Origin: Ghiorsea sp. | GTDB lineage: Bacteria; Pseudomonadota; Zetaproteobacteria; Mariprofundales; Mariprofundaceae | Direction: 5' to 3' | DNA length: 33,586 nucleotides | Assembly (NCBI GenBank): GCA_026982535.1 | Contig: JALSGX010000005.1 | Location: 1-33,586, forward strand | Shown: positions 6,123 to 23,018 of the stretch, in pieces | Numbering within the stretch: position 1 is the first letter of the stretch | Layout: every line of letters starts with the position of its first letter | Made by a program: the position numbers and the translations under genes | Notes under the pieces: generated by a model | What the model was told of the DNA's origin: nothing | The model's input: only the letters and a program-made list of their open reading frames with translations | The model's database searches: none

Positions 6123-6429
6123 CGCGATCATGTTACCTTTCATCGTTTTAGCAAACGCCGCACTTGCTGAAGATATTGATTTACATCAAGAACTTTCTCC
6201 CCACATTGAGCAAGAGCAAGTGGAAGTACGCACCTACAAACACGAAGAGGATGGTGCAGAAATCACAGAGTACCGTTCAGCAGGTAAGGTATGGATGATT
6301 AAGGTGCAGCCTGCAGGAGGCTTCCCTCCCTACTATTTATACGATGATGAAGGCGATGGTAATTTTGAACGCCGCATCGCAGGCAACAAAATACCTTCTC
6401 CTCCCATGTGGGTCATCAAACAGTGGTGA
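6106..6429 (+). CDS. DUF2782-like exported protein
   Basis: Signal-like N-terminus, then VRTYKHEEDGAEITEYRSAGKVWMIKVQPAGGFPPYYLYDDEGDGNFERR. Confidence 0.75.
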   Translation: MIMKHSAIMLPFIVLANAALAEDIDLHQELSPHIEQEQVEVRTYKHEEDGAEITEYRSAGKVWMIKVQPAGGFPPYYLYDDEGDGNFERRIAGNKIPSPPMWVIKQW

Positions 6430-10482: not shown

Positions 10483-10830
10483 ATGACAAACCACAATGCG
10501 CGTCAAGTCAGTTGGTTGTATAAGCATAGCTATATGCTACTACCAATCCCTATTGTCGCAAGCGGCATGTTTGCCGCTTATGTCGTTTATACTGGAGACG
10601 ACAAAATTGATGCTTATTGCACCATTGCCAAACATGAGGCTGCCTATGGGCAACAACAACTCAAGGATTATGATTTTGAATATCGCGCAAAGGAAACGCT
10701 GGCCATGTGCAAAGCCAAAGATAAAGATCTGGATCAAGCTGATGGCCGCAATCATGGTCGTGTTCGCTGGTTCACATGCAAAGGTACCACTTGTGGACCT
10801 GGCTGGGAAAACTTTCTAGCTGAAAAATAA
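10483..10830 (+). CDS. Hypothetical membrane-anchored protein (115 aa)
   Basis: Single N-terminal TM segment (YMLLPIPIVASGMFAAYVVY), then a Cys-containing soluble part. Confidence 0.6.
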   Translation: MTNHNARQVSWLYKHSYMLLPIPIVASGMFAAYVVYTGDDKIDAYCTIAKHEAAYGQQQLKDYDFEYRAKETLAMCKAKDKDLDQADGRNHGRVRWFTCKGTTCGPGWENFLAEK

Positions 10831-11106: not shown

Positions 11107-12195
11107 TTATTCTACTTCAGGCTCGGCTGCCATACCGCCGCCCATCTCATGCACACGCACGGTTAAGATTTTGATAGAAACCTCATCCAAGCGATCAGCA
11201 AATGATGGCATCATAGCCGTACGACCATGAGCAATGGTATCTCGAATGGTCGCCATATCGCCACCAAAGCGATAAATACCATCGGTCAGGTTTACCGCAC
11301 CCGTATCAAAGTCGCCATTGAGCATAGAACCTTTAGCATTTGCGCCGTGGCAACCTGCACAATTTTCTTGGAACAATTCATTTGCCGCGGCAAATGAACC
11401 TTTGACCAACTCACCATCATCATTCAACTCTGCTTCACCAGAAGCCAATGCCATAACAAATGTCGTGAGTGTATCCACATCAGCATCCGTTAACTCATCA
11501 TTACCACCTTTAGGCGGCATGGATGCCTCACGACCATCTGTGATGGTTTCTTGAATTTTAGCCGCCCAACCACCAAAGAGCCAGTCATCATCTGTTAAGT
11601 TTGGAAACGAAAGCTCAGGGTGAGCATCGTTCAAGTTACCTTGACCACCAGAGCCATGGCATGCTGCACAGTTGTCACCAAACAGTACAATGGAACGACC
11701 CAAAGCAAATTGGCGCATATCATCATCAGCAAGAATTTCATCGACCGACATAGAAGCAAGCTTAGCCATGGATGCTTCACGCACTGCTTCAATCTCAGCA
11801 ACATCATCACGCATTTCGTTGATTGCAGTCCAACCACTTTGATATTTCATATCACCAGCTTTAATGGTTAGATCAGTATGCCCTTTTGCTTTTAAGGCAT
11901 CAATCTCAGCCTGCGTCCATGTCTCACCTTGGTAGTATGGGTTGGAGTTGATCAATGCCATAATCCCTTTGGTATGTCCATCAACCAAGACTTCCATACC
12001 TGTAATACCATTCACCACTTCCTGAATTTTATTATTCAAGGGTGTTGATGGGTAAATAATGTAGTAGCCTGTTACAAAAATCAAACCTATGTAAAAGCCC
12101 CACGCCCACCATGTTGGTGGTGGATTTTTCAGTTCTCGAATACCGTCCCACTCGTGGCCAGTACTGTTATCATTTTGATCATGATGATCACTCAT
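11107..12195 (-). CDS. ccoP: cbb3-type cytochrome c oxidase subunit III (diheme)
   Basis: Two CxxCH heme sites (CAACH, CAGCH), N-terminal TM segment, WDGIRELKNPPPTWWAWGFY motif. Confidence 0.97.
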   Translation of the reverse strand: MSDHHDQNDNSTGHEWDGIRELKNPPPTWWAWGFYIGLIFVTGYYIIYPSTPLNNKIQEVVNGITGMEVLVDGHTKGIMALINSNPYYQGETWTQAEIDALKAKGHTDLTIKAGDMKYQSGWTAINEMRDDVAEIEAVREASMAKLASMSVDEILADDDMRQFALGRSIVLFGDNCAACHGSGGQGNLNDAHPELSFPNLTDDDWLFGGWAAKIQETITDGREASMPPKGGNDELTDADVDTLTTFVMALASGEAELNDDGELVKGSFAAANELFQENCAGCHGANAKGSMLNGDFDTGAVNLTDGIYRFGGDMATIRDTIAHGRTAMMPSFADRLDEVSIKILTVRVHEMGGGMAAEPEVE

Positions 12196-12362: not shown

Positions 12363-13208
12363 TTACTTACGGTAAGGTTGACCGAATTTATCATGATAAT
12401 AATCGACACCTTCCTCGAAGTGAACATGAGTACCTAGTTGTTGCAAGTAAGCAATCAAAGCATCCAGCTCGGTTATATCTGAAGCATCACCATCAAATGC
12501 ACGCACATTAATGGGCGTAGGCTCAAAAGAGTCTGTCCAGGTCACAACTTCACCATCATGCTTCCATACCTTGCTCTCATAGCGTTTGCGAAGCCCTTCT
12601 TCTCCAGCACCATCGTCAACACCTGCTTGCGCTTTGAGATCTGCTTCCCAGTTTGCAATATGCTCATCACTATAGGGAACATTCATCATGGCAAGCACTT
12701 CCATGCGTGCTTTTGTAATGCTTGTATCAAGGGGCGTTTCTTCCAACCATGGGTAGTTTGGCATGACCGATTCAGGAACCACAGAACGCGGTGCCCGCAT
12801 ATGTTGAATATGCCAAGCATCGGTGTATTTACCACCCAAACGAGCCAGATCAGGACCAGTACGCTTGGAGCCCCATTGGTAGTTGTGGTCAAATTGTGAC
12901 TCAGCAGCCAATGAGAAGTGACCATATCGTTCTTTTTCATCACGGAAAGGGCGAATCATTTGCGAATGGCAAAGGAAACAGCCTTCACGACGATAAATCG
13001 CGTAGCCTTCAAGCTCCAGTGGTGTCAAAGGACGAACGCCTTCCACCGCTGGTTCAGCATCATCAAGATAGTATGTAGGTACAATCTCAACAATACCGCC
13101 AACTGCCACCAAAATCACAATAAATGTTGCAAGAATGGGCAGGCTTGACTCAACTGTATCGTGCGGGATACCACGAATCATGCCACCACCTTTTTTGTAT
13201 TCTGACAT
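12363..13208 (-). CDS. ccoO: cbb3-type cytochrome c oxidase subunit II (monoheme)
   Basis: YAIYRREGCFLCHSQMIRPFRDEKERYGHFSLAAES...WGSKRTGPDLARLGGKY. Confidence 0.97.
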   Translation of the reverse strand: MSEYKKGGGMIRGIPHDTVESSLPILATFIVILVAVGGIVEIVPTYYLDDAEPAVEGVRPLTPLELEGYAIYRREGCFLCHSQMIRPFRDEKERYGHFSLAAESQFDHNYQWGSKRTGPDLARLGGKYTDAWHIQHMRAPRSVVPESVMPNYPWLEETPLDTSITKARMEVLAMMNVPYSDEHIANWEADLKAQAGVDDGAGEEGLRKRYESKVWKHDGEVVTWTDSFEPTPINVRAFDGDASDITELDALIAYLQQLGTHVHFEEGVDYYHDKFGQPYRK

Positions 13209-13218
13209 CGTTATCTCC

Positions 13219-14649
13219 TTATGCTTTTGCTTCAGCGGTTAGAGTTATATTGGTACCCGCTTTAACAGCGCTGATTGTTTTGATTGTATTAAATAGCATA
13301 ATGCTCAACCCTGTGAATACAAGGAATCCACCCGTCGCACGAATAACATAGAAAGGGTGCATGGCAGCAACTGAGTCTGCAAAAGTATAAATAAGATTGC
13401 CATACTCATCGAATGCGCGCCACATCAAACCTTGCAATACACCAGAACCCCACATCGCAGTGATGTACAGAATAGCACCTGTTAAGTGAATCCAGAAATG
13501 TGCATTAACCAGCTTGGTGGACCACATTTCAGTGTTCCACATACGCGTAATCATGTGATAAAGCGCACCGATTGCAATCATTGCATTCCAGCCCAAAGCA
13601 CCTGAATGCACATGACCAACTGTCCAGTCCGTGTAGTGCGACAATGCGTTCACAGATTTAATTGCCATCATTGGACCTTCAAAAGTTGACATACCATAAA
13701 ACGCAAGCGACACAACCATAAAGCGCATCACTGGGTCAGTCCGCAACTTATCCCAAGCCCCAGACATGGTCATCATACCATTAATCATACCTCCCCATGA
13801 TGGGAAGATAAGCGCAATCGACATACCCGCACCCAAAGACTGTGTCCAGTCAGGAATTGCTGTATAGTGAAGATGGTGCGCACCAACCCATACATACAAG
13901 AATGTTAGCGACCAAAAGTGCAGAATCGATAGCCGGTAAGAGTAAATAGGGCGGTTTGCATGCTTGGGTACAAAATAATACATAATGCCAATAAAGCCTG
14001 CTGTTAAGAAGAAGCCAACCGCATTATGACCCCACCACCACTGTATCATGGCATCATGCACACCTGCGTATGCAGAATATGAGAATGTCATATCAACTGG
14101 AATAGCTAAACCATTAAAGACAAAAATATAGGTTACCATGAATAGCATGGCCATATAGAACCATAAACCAACATAAATATGTGACATTTTACGCGCTGCA
14201 ATGGTTGCCAGCGTTGTGATTGTCAAACATACCCAGCCAAGCGCAAGAATAATATCAATCCACCACTCTGCTTCATGATACTCTTTACCTTGCGTTAACC
14301 CCAAAGGCAATGTTGCAACAACAAGCAAACAGCCAATCAACCAAAACGCAACTGCTGCCCAAGCAAATCCCTCAAGGCGCAGGCGCGCATGGGTTGTATG
14401 CTGAACCATATAAAAACCGCCACCCAAAAGCAGGAAGCCACCAAATCCAAAAATAACCACATTAGTGTGTACAGGACGAAGTCTCCCAAAGGTTATTTCT
14501 GCAATATCAAAGCTAAGCGCAGGCACCGCCAGTTGAGACGCCACCCATGTTCCAATAAAGGTGCCAAGTACACCCAAAACAATACCTAGTATAACACAAA
14601 CCTTAACAATGTCGTAATTATACTGTTCTTTTTCAGCTACCGAACTCAC
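13219..14649 (-). CDS. ccoN: cbb3-type cytochrome c oxidase subunit I
   Basis: Heme-copper oxidase subunit I with WWWGHNAVGFFLTAGF, HLHYTAIPDW, GHVHSGALGWNAM. GTG start overlaps the upstream small ORF (GTGA). Confidence 0.97.
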   Translation of the reverse strand: MSSVAEKEQYNYDIVKVCVILGIVLGVLGTFIGTWVASQLAVPALSFDIAEITFGRLRPVHTNVVIFGFGGFLLLGGGFYMVQHTTHARLRLEGFAWAAVAFWLIGCLLVVATLPLGLTQGKEYHEAEWWIDIILALGWVCLTITTLATIAARKMSHIYVGLWFYMAMLFMVTYIFVFNGLAIPVDMTFSYSAYAGVHDAMIQWWWGHNAVGFFLTAGFIGIMYYFVPKHANRPIYSYRLSILHFWSLTFLYVWVGAHHLHYTAIPDWTQSLGAGMSIALIFPSWGGMINGMMTMSGAWDKLRTDPVMRFMVVSLAFYGMSTFEGPMMAIKSVNALSHYTDWTVGHVHSGALGWNAMIAIGALYHMITRMWNTEMWSTKLVNAHFWIHLTGAILYITAMWGSGVLQGLMWRAFDEYGNLIYTFADSVAAMHPFYVIRATGGFLVFTGLSIMLFNTIKTISAVKAGTNITLTAEAKA

Positions 14650-14837
14650 GAGTTACTTCCTCCCTTCTTTTCTTTTTCCAACCTTTCTTGTTCAGCCAGT
14701 TGCATAGCCTTTCGAATAGCGGTAACAACCACCAAAACAGAAACGGTTACCGTAACGACTGACAAAACAACAGTCCAGTCGGGTGTCCATGCGTCAGCGT
14801 TGAACATCACATGACCAGCTTTTTCAACTTCCTTCAT
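14646..14837 (-). CDS. Small single-TM membrane protein upstream of ccoN (63 aa)
   Basis: DWTVVLSVVTVTVSVLVVVTAIRKAMQLAEQERLEKEKKGG; RBS aaggagtg before the ATG; stop overlaps the ccoN GTG start. Confidence 0.75.
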   Translation of the reverse strand: MKEVEKAGHVMFNADAWTPDWTVVLSVVTVTVSVLVVVTAIRKAMQLAEQERLEKEKKGGSNS

Positions 14838-15179: not shown

Positions 15180-16595
15180 ATGTCTTCTGAAAAAAAGTCT
15201 GATTACATTATTGAACATGATGACTATACCCATTGGGACATCAACCTGGGCGACAAAAAAGTCCACGCGCGCAGAATACCTGGGCGATTCAGAAATATTC
15301 GCTGGGCGGTTATGGCAAGCTTGCTTTTGCCTTTTTTTCTTGCGCCTTATTTAACATGGGGAGATAGACAAGCCATTCTTTTTGACATACCAGGGCGCAA
15401 GTTTTATTTATTTGATATTACCATTTGGCCCCAAGATCTGATTATTTTAGCACTCCTCATGCTGTTTGCCTTTGTTCTTTTGTTTGCCATGACTGCCATC
15501 GCAGGGCGCATTTTTTGCGGCAATATGTGCCCGCAAACCATGTGGACAGATCTCATGACGCTGATAGAGCGATGGGCTGAAGGCTCCGCGCGCCAACGCA
15601 TCAAGCTTGATGCCATGCCATGGAATGCTGAAAAAATACGCAAGCGTGCACTCAAACATTTGATGTGGATCATACTATGCACCACAACATCTGTGACCTT
15701 CCTTGGCTATTTCTCTGGCATTTACGATGCCTGGTATGGTCTATTCACCTTACAGTATAATGTGTATGAATGGGTTTCCTTTATCCTTGTTTTTGTTCTC
15801 TTTTATGTCAGCACTGGCTATGTACGAGAGCAAGTTTGCAACTGGATTTGCCCTTATGCACGCATTCAAGCAGTGATGACCGATAAAGACACGATTACCA
15901 CCACTTATGATTACCACAGAGGGGAACCTCGAGGTCGCCGCAAAAAGGGGCAAGACAATGATAGCTTGGGCGACTGCGTGGACTGCAACTTATGCGTATC
16001 TGTTTGCCCTACTGGCGTTGATATTCGCAATGGCAACCAAATTGGCTGCATCAACTGCGGTGTTTGCATTGATGCCTGCGACGACATCATGGAAAAGGTC
16101 GGGAAAGAAAAAGGGCTAATTCGCTTTATGTCATACCATGAGCTTGAAAATCAAAGCACCACCCACAGACGCTTCTTGCGCCCTCGCCCGCTGTTTTACA
16201 TCGCCATCACCACCGCCACCTTTTTAGGCATTATGTATGGTCTATTCTTCAAATCCGATATTGACATCAATGTGCGCCATGAACGCAGTCCGTTGTACAC
16301 ACTGATGTCAGATCGTAGTATTCAGAATGTTTTTCATACCATTATCCTGAACAAAACCGAGCATGCTGCCAAGTTCACTTTAGAAGCATCTGGCATTGAT
16401 GGCCTAATCAGTAACCTCGATGGTAAAATCTTAGAGCTCAAAACTGGTGAAGCCAAGAAAGTGACACTCCGCGTCAAGGTGCCACAAAAAAACTTAACGC
16501 AAGAAAGACAACCCATTACACTGACCTTGCGCTCAATTGACAACCCTGAAATATTCAAAGTGTATGAGTCTATGTTTTTTGGACCCAAGAGGTAA
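15180..16595 (+). CDS. ccoG: cbb3 oxidase accessory protein CcoG/FixG (polyferredoxin-type)
   Basis: GRIFCGNMCPQTMWTDL, CNWICPYARIQAVM, two 4Fe-4S motifs (CVDCNLCVSVCP, CINCGVCIDACD), FixG C-terminal region. Confidence 0.96.
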   Translation: MSSEKKSDYIIEHDDYTHWDINLGDKKVHARRIPGRFRNIRWAVMASLLLPFFLAPYLTWGDRQAILFDIPGRKFYLFDITIWPQDLIILALLMLFAFVLLFAMTAIAGRIFCGNMCPQTMWTDLMTLIERWAEGSARQRIKLDAMPWNAEKIRKRALKHLMWIILCTTTSVTFLGYFSGIYDAWYGLFTLQYNVYEWVSFILVFVLFYVSTGYVREQVCNWICPYARIQAVMTDKDTITTTYDYHRGEPRGRRKKGQDNDSLGDCVDCNLCVSVCPTGVDIRNGNQIGCINCGVCIDACDDIMEKVGKEKGLIRFMSYHELENQSTTHRRFLRPRPLFYIAITTATFLGIMYGLFFKSDIDINVRHERSPLYTLMSDRSIQNVFHTIILNKTEHAAKFTLEASGIDGLISNLDGKILELKTGEAKKVTLRVKVPQKNLTQERQPITLTLRSIDNPEIFKVYESMFFGPKR

Positions 16596-16601
16596 TCTAA
16601 A

Positions 16602-17168
16602 ATGGCTGAACCATACAAGGCACGATCAAAATCTGGCTTAAGAAGTCCATGGCTTTGGGCAATTTTTGCCCTGTTTGCCGTGATGTTCACCGTAAACTTT
16701 CTCTTCTTTACCGTTGGCAAAAACACAGCACCAGGCTTGGTCAATGAAGAATACTACAAATACGGCTTGCAACAAAACAAAATTGACAAACAGTATCGCA
16801 AACAAGCGGCGCGTGGCTGGCGCGTTGATTTGTCCACACCGCAACCTTGGCGCATTCATGAGCCCAAAGATATCTTGCTCACCGTTACCGACAAAACAGG
16901 CAAACCACTCTCTGGAGGACTTGCCGAGGTCACAGCATATCGCCCCAGCAATGCCAAATACGATATTATCCAGCAACTTAAAGAAACCGAACAACCTGGT
17001 GTGTATAAAACAAGCCTAAAACTGCCACTTCAAGGTATTTGGGATATCAACATTCTCTTTACACTAGGCGAAGACAAACACATGTTGAACAAACGCATTC
17101 ATATTATTGGCGATGGTGAAGCAGAACCAAGCTTATTGGAAAACATTGTTCGATTCATCACCAAGTAA
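16602..17168 (+). CDS. ccoH: FixH/CcoH family protein
   Basis: Single TM, then GLVNEEYYKYGLQQNK; position between ccoG and ccoI. Confidence 0.9.
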   Translation: MAEPYKARSKSGLRSPWLWAIFALFAVMFTVNFLFFTVGKNTAPGLVNEEYYKYGLQQNKIDKQYRKQAARGWRVDLSTPQPWRIHEPKDILLTVTDKTGKPLSGGLAEVTAYRPSNAKYDIIQQLKETEQPGVYKTSLKLPLQGIWDINILFTLGEDKHMLNKRIHIIGDGEAEPSLLENIVRFITK

Positions 17169-17177
17169 AGTAACTCC

Positions 17178-19646
17178 ATGAATTCGCCAACACAGGATAC
17201 CTGCTTTCATTGTGGCTTGGAACTTCCTTCTCAAGGTACTATTCATGCAGATATCCGAGGAAAAACACAAGCCTTTTGCTGCAATGGTTGTGCGCAAGTA
17301 TGCACTATCATTCATGACTCTGGCTTAGATTCCTTCTACAAATTTGCCCCAGAATCAAGAAGCTGGAGCACCCCCCAACAGGCCCCAGAAGATGCCAAGC
17401 TCTTTGATTTACCTGAGGTTCAGGCTGACTTTGTCCGTCAATATCCTGATGGTACCTATCAGGCAGATTTGCTTATTGAAGGTATTCATTGCCCCGCTTG
17501 TGTTTGGCTCATTGAGCAAGCACTGCGACAAAATAGCGCAATTGCCTCAGCAGAGGTGAGTCTAACTCGCCGCAGGCTCCGCCTTCGCTGGCAACCTGAT
17601 CAAATGAAGCTGTCGGAAGCCATTATCACCATAGGACATCTTGGCTACCAAGCCATTCCTTATGAGGAAGATCTGGAACAAAAAGCCAATAAAGCACGCA
17701 GGCAAGACCTGCTCTTTCGCATGGCATTTGCTGGTTTTGTCTTCGCCAATGTCATGACGGCTGCCGTATGTTTGTATGGGGGCGACTTTTTTGGTATTGA
17801 GCCTAAATGGCGGGCTCTATTTCAATGGTACTCCATGGTTCTTACCCTTGCAGGCATTGCCTACTCTGGACGCAGTTTTTTTATCTCTGCATGGAAAGCC
17901 ATCAAAACACGCAAACCTAATATGGACTTGCCCATCAGTATAGGTATCACTGCCAGTTTTTTATGGTCATCTTATGTTACCATTCTCCCAAACCCCAACA
18001 CTGAAGGTCATGTTTATTTTGATTCTGTATCCATGTTTGTATTCCTTATTCTTATTGGTCGATTCTTAGAATCATCGGCACGGGAAACTGCTGGCTCTGC
18101 GACACGCCACCTTTTAGCTCTGCTTCCTCGATCAGCACGCATGGTATTGGATCGTGGGCATGAGGAGATGATACCACTACGCTCCATTCGTCGGGGTAAT
18201 GTGCTTCGCATCAAACCTGGCGACCGTATTCCCGTTGATGGCGAGGTCGTTGAAGGTTACTCAGAGGTTGATGAGTCCATCATTTCAGGAGAATCCCGCC
18301 CAGTCACCAAGCAAACAGGCAGCCAGGTTATCGGCGGAACCCTTAACATTTCAGGGCAATTGTTGGTTAAAGCAACTCACCTCGGTCATGAATCTGTCTT
18401 AGCGCAAATCATTGAGCTGGTCGAACAAGCGCAAGACTCCAAAGTTCGCATTCAAGGTATCGCAGACCGTATTGTTCCTTGGTTTGTCTCCATTATCTTG
18501 GGTCTGGCCGCCATAACTTTTATCTACTGGTATATCAGTGCTGGCTTTGCTGTAGCAATCATGACAGCAGTGACTGTGCTTATCATTACCTGCCCCTGTG
18601 CATTGGGGCTGGCGACGCCTATGGCTATTTCCATTGGGGCAGGTCTGGGTGGCAAACTGGGTATTTTAATTAAACAAGGTTGCGCTTTAGAGCAGATGCT
18701 TAGTTTGGATCATATCGTATTTGATAAAACAGGCACATTAACCCGAGGGCAGCTTCAGGTTCAAAGCAGAATGTGCTTCACGCAAGATGAAGCAAAGCTA
18801 TGGCAACAAGTGCATACCCTTGAACGAGCATCAGAACACCCCCTCGCCACAGCCATTACCGAAGACTTACAAGATTACCCTGCCACAGCACAGCTGACGC
18901 AATTCAAAAGCATCCAAGGGCGTGGTGTTGAAGGCTATTTCGATAAACGCATCTTGCGCGTTGGTTCTCTAAGCTGGATGTTATCACAACATATTCCCCT
19001 ACCAGAACATATCCAAACACAACTCATACGCGAAGAAGAGCGGGGGCATACGCTGGTAGTCGTCTTTGATGATCACCAACTCCTAGCATGGCTTGCCCTT
19101 GGCGATAAACTGCGTCCTGAAGCATCAGATGTCATCACAACACTTCAAAAACAAGGCATAGGCATTAGCCTGATTACAGGTGACAGAAAAGGATCTGCCG
19201 AAGCTATTGTTGCACAAATCCATACATTAAAACCTATACAAGTGATTGCCGAAGTATTGCCCCATGAAAAAGCAGAAAAAATTAGAGCCTTGCAAAACCA
19301 AGGCTTAACTGTTGGCATGATTGGTGATGGTGTAAACGATGCGCCAGCGCTCACCCAAGCCAATGTAGGTATTGCCATGGGACAAGCCACAGATATTTCA
19401 GCTCATGCCGCGGATATTGTGCTACTTGGTGGTTTGGATAAGCTGCCTATTGCATTCGCTTTATCCAAGCAAACCATTCGTACCATCAAACAAAACCTTG
19501 CCATCTCACTCAGTTATAATATTATCGTTATTCCACTTGCTATGGCAGGCTTTGTTCATCCGCTGTTTGCAGCAATCGCAATGCCAATATCCTCGCTTTT
19601 GGTTATTGGCAACGCACTACTCATTCACAAGCGTGTAAAAGGATAG
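17178..19646 (+). CDS. ccoI: CcoI/FixI-type copper P1B-ATPase
   Basis: CFHCGLELP, CCNGCAQVC, GIHCPACVWLIEQAL; TCPCALGLATP; DKTGTLT; MIGDGVNDAPAL. Confidence 0.96.
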   Translation: MNSPTQDTCFHCGLELPSQGTIHADIRGKTQAFCCNGCAQVCTIIHDSGLDSFYKFAPESRSWSTPQQAPEDAKLFDLPEVQADFVRQYPDGTYQADLLIEGIHCPACVWLIEQALRQNSAIASAEVSLTRRRLRLRWQPDQMKLSEAIITIGHLGYQAIPYEEDLEQKANKARRQDLLFRMAFAGFVFANVMTAAVCLYGGDFFGIEPKWRALFQWYSMVLTLAGIAYSGRSFFISAWKAIKTRKPNMDLPISIGITASFLWSSYVTILPNPNTEGHVYFDSVSMFVFLILIGRFLESSARETAGSATRHLLALLPRSARMVLDRGHEEMIPLRSIRRGNVLRIKPGDRIPVDGEVVEGYSEVDESIISGESRPVTKQTGSQVIGGTLNISGQLLVKATHLGHESVLAQIIELVEQAQDSKVRIQGIADRIVPWFVSIILGLAAITFIYWYISAGFAVAIMTAVTVLIITCPCALGLATPMAISIGAGLGGKLGILIKQGCALEQMLSLDHIVFDKTGTLTRGQLQVQSRMCFTQDEAKLWQQVHTLERASEHPLATAITEDLQDYPATAQLTQFKSIQGRGVEGYFDKRILRVGSLSWMLSQHIPLPEHIQTQLIREEERGHTLVVVFDDHQLLAWLALGDKLRPEASDVITTLQKQGIGISLITGDRKGSAEAIVAQIHTLKPIQVIAEVLPHEKAEKIRALQNQGLTVGMIGDGVNDAPALTQANVGIAMGQATDISAHAADIVLLGGLDKLPIAFALSKQTIRTIKQNLAISLSYNIIVIPLAMAGFVHPLFAAIAMPISSLLVIGNALLIHKRVKG

Positions 19647-19651
19647 TAGAA

Positions 19652-19855
19652 ATGGATATTATTTTAATGCTTATACCTGCTGCACTGGTGTTTAGTGTGG
19701 TTGCACTTTTGGTTTTCCGTTGGTCAGTCAACTCTGAACAATATGATGATATGGAAGGAGAGGCGCATCGGATTCTTATGGATAATGAAGATATGATTCC
19801 AACACCCAAACGCACAAAAAACAATCTTCCTGAAAACAAAAAAGAAGACACCTGA
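19652..19855 (+). CDS. ccoS: cbb3 oxidase maturation protein CcoS
   Basis: Short TM protein MDIILMLIPAALVFSVVALLVFRWSVNSEQYDDMEGEAHRIL directly after ccoI. Confidence 0.93.
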   Translation: MDIILMLIPAALVFSVVALLVFRWSVNSEQYDDMEGEAHRILMDNEDMIPTPKRTKNNLPENKKEDT

Positions 19856-19857
19856 AT

Positions 19858-20484
19858 ATGGGCAAGTTTGCCTTGTTCTTTGCTGCTGTGGTGGCGTTGT
19901 CAACTTATTACATTACCAGTTCAGTGTATCAACTATCCCCCACTTCCAAGCCACAACGAACATGGGTGGACAATACAGGGAAGCTTCATGTCATGGGCAT
20001 CGTTTTGGGTGAAAGTACGGTTCGTGATGCGGAGCTTGCGTTCCGTAGCAGAGCGGATGCAGCCATATTTTTATACCCTCTGCCTCCCACGCAAAGTGGC
20101 AACAAGCAATTTAGAGGTGAAATTGAGGCTTATTTCCCATCCATCGCGGACCACAGTAAAGTCATTTTAGAACTTGAAGTCTCAGCCACTCAAATTGAAG
20201 CCATGCGACAGCGAAGTACCATGCCAAGAGTTTACCCCAATGGTGTTATTCGCATGAACCTTGGTGATAAAGATGTTCTTGGCGTACAAAACATGGTCAT
20301 TCGCAAGCTTACCCTGATACCCAGTATTACCATCACCGAAGATATTCTTCATGCACAATTTGGCAATCATACAAGTAAATCTTCACCGACCAACACGCTA
20401 ACCATATACCACTACCCCGATATTGGTCTAACTGCAGAGATCAACCATGAAGGCAAAGATAAATTGATGTTTGTGAACCCTTAA
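19858..20484 (+). CDS. Uncharacterised membrane-anchored protein, paralog A
   Basis: N-terminal TM; shares motifs with ORF 20971..21654 (EAYF, PR.YP.GV.R.N, TLIPSITI vs TIIPGHAI). Starts 3 nt after the ccoS stop. Confidence 0.8.
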   Translation: MGKFALFFAAVVALSTYYITSSVYQLSPTSKPQRTWVDNTGKLHVMGIVLGESTVRDAELAFRSRADAAIFLYPLPPTQSGNKQFRGEIEAYFPSIADHSKVILELEVSATQIEAMRQRSTMPRVYPNGVIRMNLGDKDVLGVQNMVIRKLTLIPSITITEDILHAQFGNHTSKSSPTNTLTIYHYPDIGLTAEINHEGKDKLMFVNP

Positions 20485-20495
20485 TCGCCATAAAA

Positions 20496-20515
20496 AAGGC
20501 AGTCTAGGCTGCCTT
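20496..20515 (-). terminator. Hairpin terminator between convergent genes (best T-tract on minus strand; possibly bidirectional)
   Basis: aaggcag-tctagg-ctgcctt hairpin; minus transcript continues tttttta, plus transcript continues ctttc. Confidence 0.75.
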
Positions 20516-20541
20516 CTTTCAAAGTGTGGGATCACACGCGT

Positions 20542-20757
20542 TTAATGTCCGCGCGGATCAGGTTTTTCACAAGTGTCTTTATCCAAAAGCGAATAAATTG
20601 GGCAACTGCTAACCAAACCAGTGACCAACAATACCAAGCCAACAACAATAAGCACAATACCCATGGCACCCTCAGGACCAAGCCAGCCAGCTAAAGCTAA
20701 AGCTGTGCCAATGATAACGCGCAGTGTACGATCAACTGTTCCAACATTTTCCTTCAT
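20542..20757 (-). CDS. DUF2892 (YgaP-like TM) membrane protein
   Basis: MKENVGTVDRTLRVIIGTALALAGWLGP...GLVLLVTGLVSSCPIYSLL. Confidence 0.9.
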   Translation of the reverse strand: MKENVGTVDRTLRVIIGTALALAGWLGPEGAMGIVLIVVGLVLLVTGLVSSCPIYSLLDKDTCEKPDPRGH

Positions 20758-20970
20758 AGTAACTCCTCCTCACTGTAGTTTCAAAAGTACCCAAGCTAAT
20801 GATACCAATATAAATAATGCGGGCATGTTATCGGATAAACACACCCGTGCCAACCCTTACTTAAATTTTCTTTAATCTTGTATGATGTCAATTGACTTGA
20901 TGCCCCTCATAACAATGGCAGCATCCGACCATTGAAACTAAAACACAGGCTTGACAACATAGGAGCTACG

Positions 20971-21654
20971 ATGAATTCAACATGGGTTATACGCATTATC
21001 GCAGGGCTTTTGCTTTCTTACCTGATTTATATTTTCTACCCAACCTCCAGCCCTAACCCACGACCTTTCTTCTGGGAGATACAAAACAGCGATCAAGGCG
21101 TTCATATATTAGGCATACGCATCAACACCCACAACTTGCAAGATGCGATGCTTCGACTTCAAGGCATTCCAACTACAGCTCTGTTTACCAAGCGTAAAGC
21201 GCCAGGTGAGCCTGAACCTGACATGCACCTTGAAGCATATTTTGAAGATATTTACGATGAAGGCGACCGTTTTATCTTTGGGCTAAATGCTGATGAAAAG
21301 CTTCTGCAACATATCAAAAAGCAAGGTATAGAGCCAAGGCTTTATCCTGACGGTGTACTGCGCATCAACATTCATCCCGATCTTGCAACCATCATACAAG
21401 AGCTACCTATCCACAGTATCACCATTATCCCGGGTCATGCTATAGATTTCGAAGAGTTTCAAGAGCATATGGGCAAACCTGATAACCTGATCAATGATGG
21501 CGTAGGCAACGCACACTTTTTATACCCCAAACTCGGCCTAGATTTTATCCAGCCCGCAGGTGGAACACAGGTGCTACAGTTTGTCGCACCTGAAGACTTT
21601 GAAGAAAAACTGGCAAAACCATTAATACAATCACTACCTCAAGGAGCTATTTAA
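20971..21654 (+). CDS. Uncharacterised membrane-anchored protein, paralog B
   Basis: ATG 20971 preceded by aggagctacg; N-terminal TM STWVIRIIAGLLLSYLIYIF; VHILGIRI...LEAYFEDIY...PRLYPDGVLRINI...SITIIPG. Confidence 0.8.
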   Translation: MNSTWVIRIIAGLLLSYLIYIFYPTSSPNPRPFFWEIQNSDQGVHILGIRINTHNLQDAMLRLQGIPTTALFTKRKAPGEPEPDMHLEAYFEDIYDEGDRFIFGLNADEKLLQHIKKQGIEPRLYPDGVLRINIHPDLATIIQELPIHSITIIPGHAIDFEEFQEHMGKPDNLINDGVGNAHFLYPKLGLDFIQPAGGTQVLQFVAPEDFEEKLAKPLIQSLPQGAI

Positions 21655-21655
21655 T

Positions 21656-22501
21656 ATGGAACTTATAATCGCAGCGTTTCTTATCGGTTTTTTAGGCAGT
21701 ATGCACTGTGTTGGTATGTGTGGCGGCTTGGTGACAACACTAACCATGTCTCGTTCAAGTATTTGGTGGTCAGGGTTAGCCAGCTATCAAGTTGGACGCA
21801 TACTTACCTATACACTTTTCGGGCTTATCGCGGGCATGATTGGCATGGCAATCACTCAAGTGGATTGGTTTGCGGATATGCAACGGGGGCTAACCCTATT
21901 TGCAGGCACCTTAATGATTATCTTTGGTCTCAACCTTGCGGGCTGGTTGCCAGACCCTTTTGTCAACATCATAACCAGATTTACGACATGGATTGGGTTA
22001 ACCAAATGGATTCATGCCGCAACCACAAGCCGTATGCCCATGAGCTGGTTGATGGTCGGCCTGTTTAATGGCTTATTACCTTGTGGCCTTGTCTATGCAG
22101 CATTGGCTTTAAGCTTAACATCAGGAAATATGGTATTGTCAGCCAGCATGATGTTTGCTTTTGGCTTAGGTACAATTCCTGCCATGATGGTTGTACCCGT
22201 TGTGCTGAAGTCTGCCTCTCCTAAGGCACGAGGCTGGGTACTCAAAGTTGCTGCCATATTATTGGTCGGCATTGGCTTATTTACCATGATTCGTGGTAGT
22301 ACATTCATGCACAGTATGCACGACATGCAGCACTCAGAACACACCATGCCAGCCAAACACGGCACACATCAGCATCACATGGACAGCCCTCCAATGAATA
22401 GCGAACCGCAACAGGACATGAATCAACAGGACATGGATATGCACGATATGAATATGGACAACACGGATCAGTCCAGCCCTGTTCCTCATATGAACCATTA
22501 A
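21656..22501 (+). CDS. Sulfite exporter TauE/SafE-type (DsbD-TM-like) transporter with Met/His-rich C-terminal tail
   Basis: FLIGFLGSMHCVGMCGGLVTTL and LFNGLLPCGLVYAALALSLTSG motifs; tail MHSMHDMQHSEHTMPAKHGTHQHHMD...MHDMNMDN. Confidence 0.88.
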   Translation: MELIIAAFLIGFLGSMHCVGMCGGLVTTLTMSRSSIWWSGLASYQVGRILTYTLFGLIAGMIGMAITQVDWFADMQRGLTLFAGTLMIIFGLNLAGWLPDPFVNIITRFTTWIGLTKWIHAATTSRMPMSWLMVGLFNGLLPCGLVYAALALSLTSGNMVLSASMMFAFGLGTIPAMMVVPVVLKSASPKARGWVLKVAAILLVGIGLFTMIRGSTFMHSMHDMQHSEHTMPAKHGTHQHHMDSPPMNSEPQQDMNQQDMDMHDMNMDNTDQSSPVPHMNH

Positions 22502-22608
22502 TGTGGTGGTTCGCCTTCATAGAGCTGGGCTTGTTTTTTGTACTCATGGGTATTATCGCATGGGTATTTTTCAAGCCACGCAAGCAAAATAAAAACAAAA
22601 AGCCTTGA
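22501..22608 (+). CDS. Predicted 35-aa single-TM microprotein
   Basis: ATG overlaps the previous stop (TAATG); MWWFAFIELGLFFVLMGIIAWVFFKPRKQNKNKKP. Below the ORF track length cutoff. Confidence 0.6.
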   Translation: MWWFAFIELGLFFVLMGIIAWVFFKPRKQNKNKKP

Positions 22609-22611
22609 GCA

Positions 22612-22640
22612 TTCATATTTTTCTACAAACAGACTAGACT
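22612..22640 (+). promoter_or_regulatory. Candidate sigma70 promoter for rnpB
   Basis: TTCATA, 17-nt spacer, TAGACT; predicted start about 7 nt downstream coincides with the 5' strand of the rnpB terminal helix. Only 4/6 matches per box. Confidence 0.35.
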
Positions 22641-22646
22641 TGCCAC

Positions 22647-23018
22647 GCGAAGTGGCTCAGATGGTCGCGCTGTGTTGCAACACAGGGAGGAAAGTCCGGG
22701 CTGCACAGAGTAGGATGCTGGATAACATCCAGTGGGGGTGATCCCAGGAAAGTGCCACAGAGACCAGACCGCCTTGCATTTGTGCAAGGTAAGGGTGAAA
22801 AGGTGCGGTAAGAGCGCACCGCTTGCTTTGGTGACAAGGCAAGGCTTAGGTAAACCCCATCCGCAGCAAGACCAAATAGGAAGCCATATGGTGTGACTCG
22901 CGCTTGGCTTCGGGTAGGTTGCTTGAGGCAGTTGGTAACAACTTGTCCAGATGAATGACCATCGCTTTTGTTTGCCAACAAACAAAAGAACAGAACCCGG
23001 CTTACCGAGCCACTTCGC
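22647..23018 (+). ncRNA. rnpB: RNase P RNA, bacterial class A
   Basis: Conserved GAGGAAAGTCCGGGCT, CCACAGAGACCAGACCGCC, AAGGGTGAAAAGGTGCGGTAAGAGCGCACCGC, GGTAAACCCC, GACCAAATAGG, AGATGAATGACCATC, ACAGAACCCGGCTTA. Ends defined by pairing gcgaagtggctc / gagccacttcgc. Confidence 0.97.

Follow-up and report, generated by a model that had tools for sequence, protein, structure and literature searches.

The window analysed here, a stretch of 33,586 nucleotides whose closest locus relatives, in Ghiorsea and Mariprofundus, point to a Ghiorsea-like zetaproteobacterium, encodes two proteins, A and B, that are members of one unnamed proteobacterial family absent from Pfam and NCBIfam. Based on genome distribution, gene neighbourhood and predicted topology, we propose, with a probability of roughly 0.6, that this family is an unrecognised, periplasm-facing accessory family of the canonical cbb3 oxidase, most likely with a role in its assembly or stability. 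The cbb3 oxidases sustain life at very low oxygen, in iron oxidisers and a number of pathogens among others, and how they are assembled is understood only in part.

The genes ccoN, ccoO and ccoP lie upstream of ccoGHIS-A and are divergently oriented (Table 1). The start codon of protein A lies 2 bp past the ccoS stop codon, and 1 bp separates the protein B stop codon from the ATG of the DsbD_2 gene. A program-made ORF list puts the start of protein B at TTG 20932; ATG 20971 was preferred, which has AGGAG upstream and agrees with the start of relatives. Both ORFs drawn in the first-pass annotation are intact, have good starts and are homologous. That annotation had set them after ccoGHIS and before a TauE/SafE-type gene; these neighbours were confirmed, the TauE/SafE-type gene being assigned here to Pfam DsbD_2 (E=5e-47). 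Because the YgaP-like gene between A and B lies on the minus strand, the two do not form one operon and are separate transcription units; Ghiorsea relatives keep this gene at the same place. FNR boxes close to A or B were limited to sites with two mismatches, and promoter matches across 19500-22700 showed no excess over shuffles. Elsewhere in the window, a perfect FNR-type palindrome, TTGATTTACATCAA, occurs at 6176-6189 (+), upstream of a thiamine-phosphate synthase-like gene, and a 115-aa ORF at 10483-10830 (+), between mutS and ccoP, is 38-47% conserved in relatives and has no match in Pfam or NCBIfam.

Table 1 Features of the cco locus in the window, and members of a second family found in related loci.
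Feature	Position	Strand	Evidence and remarks
ccoP	11107..12195	-	FixP_N + Cytochrome_CBB3
ccoO	12363..13208	-	TIGR00781
ccoN, cbb3 catalytic subunit	13219..14649	-	TIGR00780 ccoN over cut-off
Small ORF at ccoQ position	14646..14837	-	Position, conserved in relatives; no NCBIfam match
ccoG	15180..16595	+	TIGR02745
ccoH	16602..17168	+	FixH 2e-27
ccoI, copper P1B-type ATPase	17178..19646	+	TIGR01511 over cut-off; cco position
ccoS (67 aa)	19652..19855	+	FixS 2e-19, TIGR00847 ccoS 6e-16; cbb3 maturation
Protein A (208 aa)	19858..20484	+	N-terminal TM helix (~residues 2-25), soluble alpha/beta domain; closes ccoGHIS-A
YgaP-like TM protein	20542..20757	-	PF11127 1.5e-21; convergent to A, divergent from B
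Protein B (227 aa)	20971..21654	+	A paralogue, C-terminal helical extension; opens B-dsbD_2
DsbD_2-family membrane protein	21656..22501	+	PF13386 4.7e-47
4-TM family examples	L151:10362-10880, L212:10318-10818, L065:18236-18739, others		Alignment A9

Pairwise comparison bears out the paralogy of A and B proposed in the first-pass annotation. BLASTP aligned the two proteins with 60.5 bits (E=5e-16, 27% over 198 aa), and their Smith-Waterman score of 154 lies far above that of 500 shuffles (mean 31, sd 5, maximum 62); it was 143, still far above the shuffles, when the TM segments were left out. As described earlier, each protein has one N-terminal TM segment, the only hydrophobic segment found, followed by a soluble domain, and the shared motifs run in the same order, falling into the same alignment columns in 29 relatives. 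CxxC and CxxCH motifs, already noted as missing, are indeed absent from A and B, since neither sequence contains any Cys.

Searches of A and B against Pfam and NCBIfam returned no model at E<=10, and 34 diverse members of the family gave scattered chance matches only. A profile search of PDB sequences with the family likewise found no match (best hmmsearch E 0.96). The AF2 models are confident (pLDDT 93.7 for A and 94.0 for B) and show an alpha/beta domain behind a single N-terminal helix; Foldseek comparison of both models with the PDB, the check on predicted structures suggested at the outset, gave no match at E<=1e-3. The earlier statement that the family is not recognisable as a known one therefore holds at the level of Pfam, NCBIfam and the PDB, even across 34 members, and the strong match to an established family that it had named as grounds for refutation did not turn up. 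We discounted the likeness of the best Foldseek matches to TATA-binding protein, since E exceeded 1e-3, TM was ~0.2 and the rmsd was more than 10 A. A BamE-like tandem repeat had also been suspected from the motif pattern, the motif order 'G..LG.STL.DA...FG.P' being alike by eye to that of BamE/SmpA-OmlA (PF04355); it was dropped because hhalign gave nothing when the two halves were compared with one another or with BamE, the probability being below 1% for each half against a small BamE set of six sequences, and the 34 members had no Pfam match. A and B do not match the CcoG, CcoH, CcoI or CcoS family profiles either, and CcoG, H, I and S are encoded by separate genes at the same locus. A search of a library made up mainly of open-access papers gave no description of the family.

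The family occurs in 39 of the 78 genomes of the zetaproteobacterial order. Both copies are present in 14 of these 39 (12 in the window's genus and two in a sister genus) and a single copy in the other 25. In a second class, that of G272 and probably the Gammaproteobacteria as GTDB defines them, an expanded profile picked up 95 positives, nearly all single-copy, among 369 genomes. A scan of genome contigs with protein A alone found no match, and a plasmid search gave no relative. What seemed to be a third copy in L211 was a different gene that BLAST had matched by chance. The A proteins make up a single clade of the tree; B sits not beside A but with two second-class proteins from cco clusters (98/79), so that either the A-B split is old or B was acquired. 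Judged from this tree, the A/B pair is no recent local duplication: the ancient duplication put forward in the first-pass annotation is one of the two readings, acquisition of B the other. The same annotation had envisaged A and B as a possible heterodimer. Since most genomes carry a single copy, A and B are separate transcription units and the nearest relatives of B are not A, this idea is weak, and an obligate pair is at odds with the 25 of 39 genomes that have one copy. A-type genes were also found in two Nitrosomonadales MAGs (L127 and L135), nested inside the Mariprofundus clade of the tree, one beside cco genes and the other beside a NiFe hydrogenase large subunit gene; this placement suggests horizontal transfer or MAG contamination.

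Co-occurrence with cbb3 supports our proposal. Within the zetaproteobacterial order, the family is present in every one of the 36 genomes that match CcoS (FixS) strongly, and the three other positives are fragmented MAGs that have a canonical CcoN at 60% identity. Family-free zetaproteobacterial genomes were probed with CcoN to exclude an overlooked cbb3: none of the 19 probed has a canonical CcoN, 13 having only a ~30% CcoN relative and six no CcoN. The closed family-negative genomes of the genus Mariprofundus, G023 and G078, have no CcoN, which is consistent with the aa3-only M. aestuarium and M. ferrinatatus, a species identity that we infer; these two species are reported to have an aa3 but not a cbb3 oxidase (PMC5513912; PMC6443915). 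In the second class, CcoS is found in 92 of the 95 positives, compared with 205 of 369 genomes overall (Fisher 6e-25, and 2e-18 at genus level, shared ancestry being ignored in both). CcoS and/or a canonical CcoN is present in 94 of the 95, two of the three CcoS-less exceptions having a canonical CcoN; G978 is the sole positive in which these searches found neither. Most seeds of the profile had been taken from cco loci, but the genome searches themselves were position-blind. The co-occurrence survey advised earlier thus shows, in two classes, a family almost confined to genomes that bear CcoS or CcoN. As it has no database entry and is confined almost wholly to cbb3 genomes, the family probably has a so far overlooked part in building or stabilising cbb3. 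Every zetaproteobacterium sampled that has a canonical cbb3 carries it, as do about half of the cbb3-bearing second-class genomes; because 113 of the 205 CcoS-positive genomes of that class lack it (E<=1e-3), cbb3 in general can do without it.

The zetaproteobacterial genomes G018, G024, G025, G028, G030, G033, G038-G040, G114, G127, G145 and G177 lack the A/B family, and the only CcoN-like protein they carry is a divergent one (~30% to that of the window). In some of them, the contig with the CcoN-like gene also gives a weak FixS-like match. These zetaproteobacteria may possess a second cbb3-like type, and the A/B family sets the canonical cbb3 clusters of zetaproteobacteria apart from the divergent CcoN-like type.

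The patchy distribution, restricted to canonical cbb3, would also fit a lineage-specific accessory subunit, present in the mature oxidase of some lineages like CcoM or CcoH, rather than a transient assembly factor. A single TM helix with a periplasmic domain agrees with this, as CcoH and CcoM are reported as extra single-TM subunits (PMC8267372). However, the family is often encoded away from ccoNOP, and the window copy follows ccoS and precedes dsbD_2 instead of standing among the structural genes; we regard a subunit as possible but doubtful.

Gene position was read locus by locus. In nearly all zetaproteobacterial loci that were read, the gene lies in or beside ccoNOP-GHIS, with varying orientation and place. 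It also lies in cco clusters of one neighbouring-order family (L151, L184, L186, L188, L190, L193 and L194) and, again in differing orientation and place, of varied gammaproteobacterial-type genomes (L211-L217, L227 and L230). Most second-class copies are not near cco: of 70 comparable copies, 16 lie within 10 kb of ccoS and 54 lie farther away or on another contig. Physical linkage hence does not explain the co-occurrence. The first-pass annotation had held that homologues found mostly away from cbb3 genes would speak against a cbb3 role; in the second class their positions (54/70) are of this kind, but the genome-level co-occurrence contradicts that objection. The neighbours of these distant copies are mixed (nuoN, coq7, ndk-rlmN, prfC and hemF, several named by eye). 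In G214 the gene stands beside nuoN and ccoS is elsewhere in the genome. At L225:8809-9726, L195:10646-11275 and L198:8260-9042, copies away from cco have hemF-like or coq7-like neighbours, identified by eye.

The copies beside nuoN (L150, L185 and L153) and those beside a coq7-like gene (L195 and L198, named by eye) could be taken to mean that the family serves electron supply, linking cbb3 to its cytochrome donor, bc1 or complex I in supercomplexes, as in the supercomplex-type electron-supply role proposed for Campylobacter CcoZ, an example of a cbb3-linked gene that can serve in this way (PMC8267372). Such neighbours are nonetheless a minority that may be due to chance within mixed non-cco neighbourhoods, and the family has no cytochrome motif, which makes this reading unlikely. 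The scattered positions in many genomes, together with G978, positive without a detectable cbb3, could instead mean that the family is part of a general programme for low oxygen or envelope stress, which would accompany cbb3 but leave the oxidase itself untouched; repeated independent placement in cco clusters of differing layout and absence from the closed Mariprofundus-genus genomes without CcoN argue against it, and we consider it quite unlikely.

The conserved residues favour protein contacts over direct metal or haem binding. Invariant columns among 29 aligned members hold Ala, Glu, Pro, Arg, Gly and Leu. Across about 100 sequences from the two classes, the Glu of LEAYF is conserved in 99%, the Phe and Gly of RFG in 95% and 99%, and a Gly-Leu near the C-terminus in 97% and 93%. 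Glu, Gly, Phe, Leu and Pro rank as the best-conserved residues; none of these alignments has an invariant Cys, His or Met. The earlier suggestion of unrecognised assembly or metal/haem-handling factors is retained for an unnamed, cbb3-linked family and finds no support in the residues for metal or haem. A copper or haem chaperone for CcoN, which the position beside ccoS, ccoI and the DsbD_2 gene might call to mind, is very improbable given the lack of Cys in A and B, of invariant His or Met in the family and the nature of its top residues.

We therefore return to an accessory factor for assembly or stability, for which the sequences allow an outline. The N-terminus of family members is short and charged and is followed by one TM helix, or by a lipobox-like start in its place (LAGC or LTGC, in L230 and L221); either start would put the soluble domain in the periplasm, the side on which CcoO and CcoP are found and to which CcoN turns its outer face. 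The protein would be anchored in the inner membrane by its single helix (in a few members by a lipobox), with the alpha/beta domain in the periplasm, where it may bind CcoN, CcoO or CcoP on a periplasmic face, or else bind an intermediate. We infer both this contact with the oxidase and a role in assembly or stability rather than in catalysis. The family would then be an optional factor whose role, though not its sequence, resembles that of CcoH, which stabilises cbb3 subcomplexes.

A second unnamed family may be involved. Its members, of ~170 aa with four TM helices and invariant Ala15, His19, Arg88 and Pro131 (alignment A9), are encoded beside an A/B-type gene or between ccoI and ccoS. This 4-TM family was found in 12 of 30 genomes that have the A/B family and CcoS, against 1 of 28 with CcoS only (Fisher 8e-4), and in none of 20 second-class genomes without CcoS. 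It has no significant match in Pfam or NCBIfam and is absent from the window's genome. That the A/B family is a dedicated cbb3 assembly or stability factor, often working with the 4-TM family encoded alongside, appears to us about an even bet.

Several known cbb3 proteins invite comparison. CcoH/FixH (PF05751) resembles A and B in its single N-terminal TM helix, periplasmic domain, place in the cco cluster and plausible stability-type role, but is encoded by a separate gene in the same loci, and A and B have no PF05751 match. CcoS/FixS (PF03597) co-occurs with the A/B family and often adjoins it, yet is a small maturation protein (67 aa here) unrelated in sequence. CcoM of Pseudomonas, a single-TM stability subunit of cbb3 (PMC8267372), is similarly a lineage-restricted single-TM protein, whereas A and B have a ~180-aa soluble domain. 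In Campylobacter jejuni, CcoX, CcoY and CcoZ are cbb3-linked proteins encoded beside cco genes and required for full activity (PMC8267372); as cbb3-linked proteins that had gone unrecognised they resemble A and B, and they differ in gene location, a comparison made by description only. If our proposal is true, a widespread unnamed family that tracks cbb3 across two classes would represent a missing part of the assembly pathway, and its role is open to simple deletions in cultivable cbb3-bearing species.
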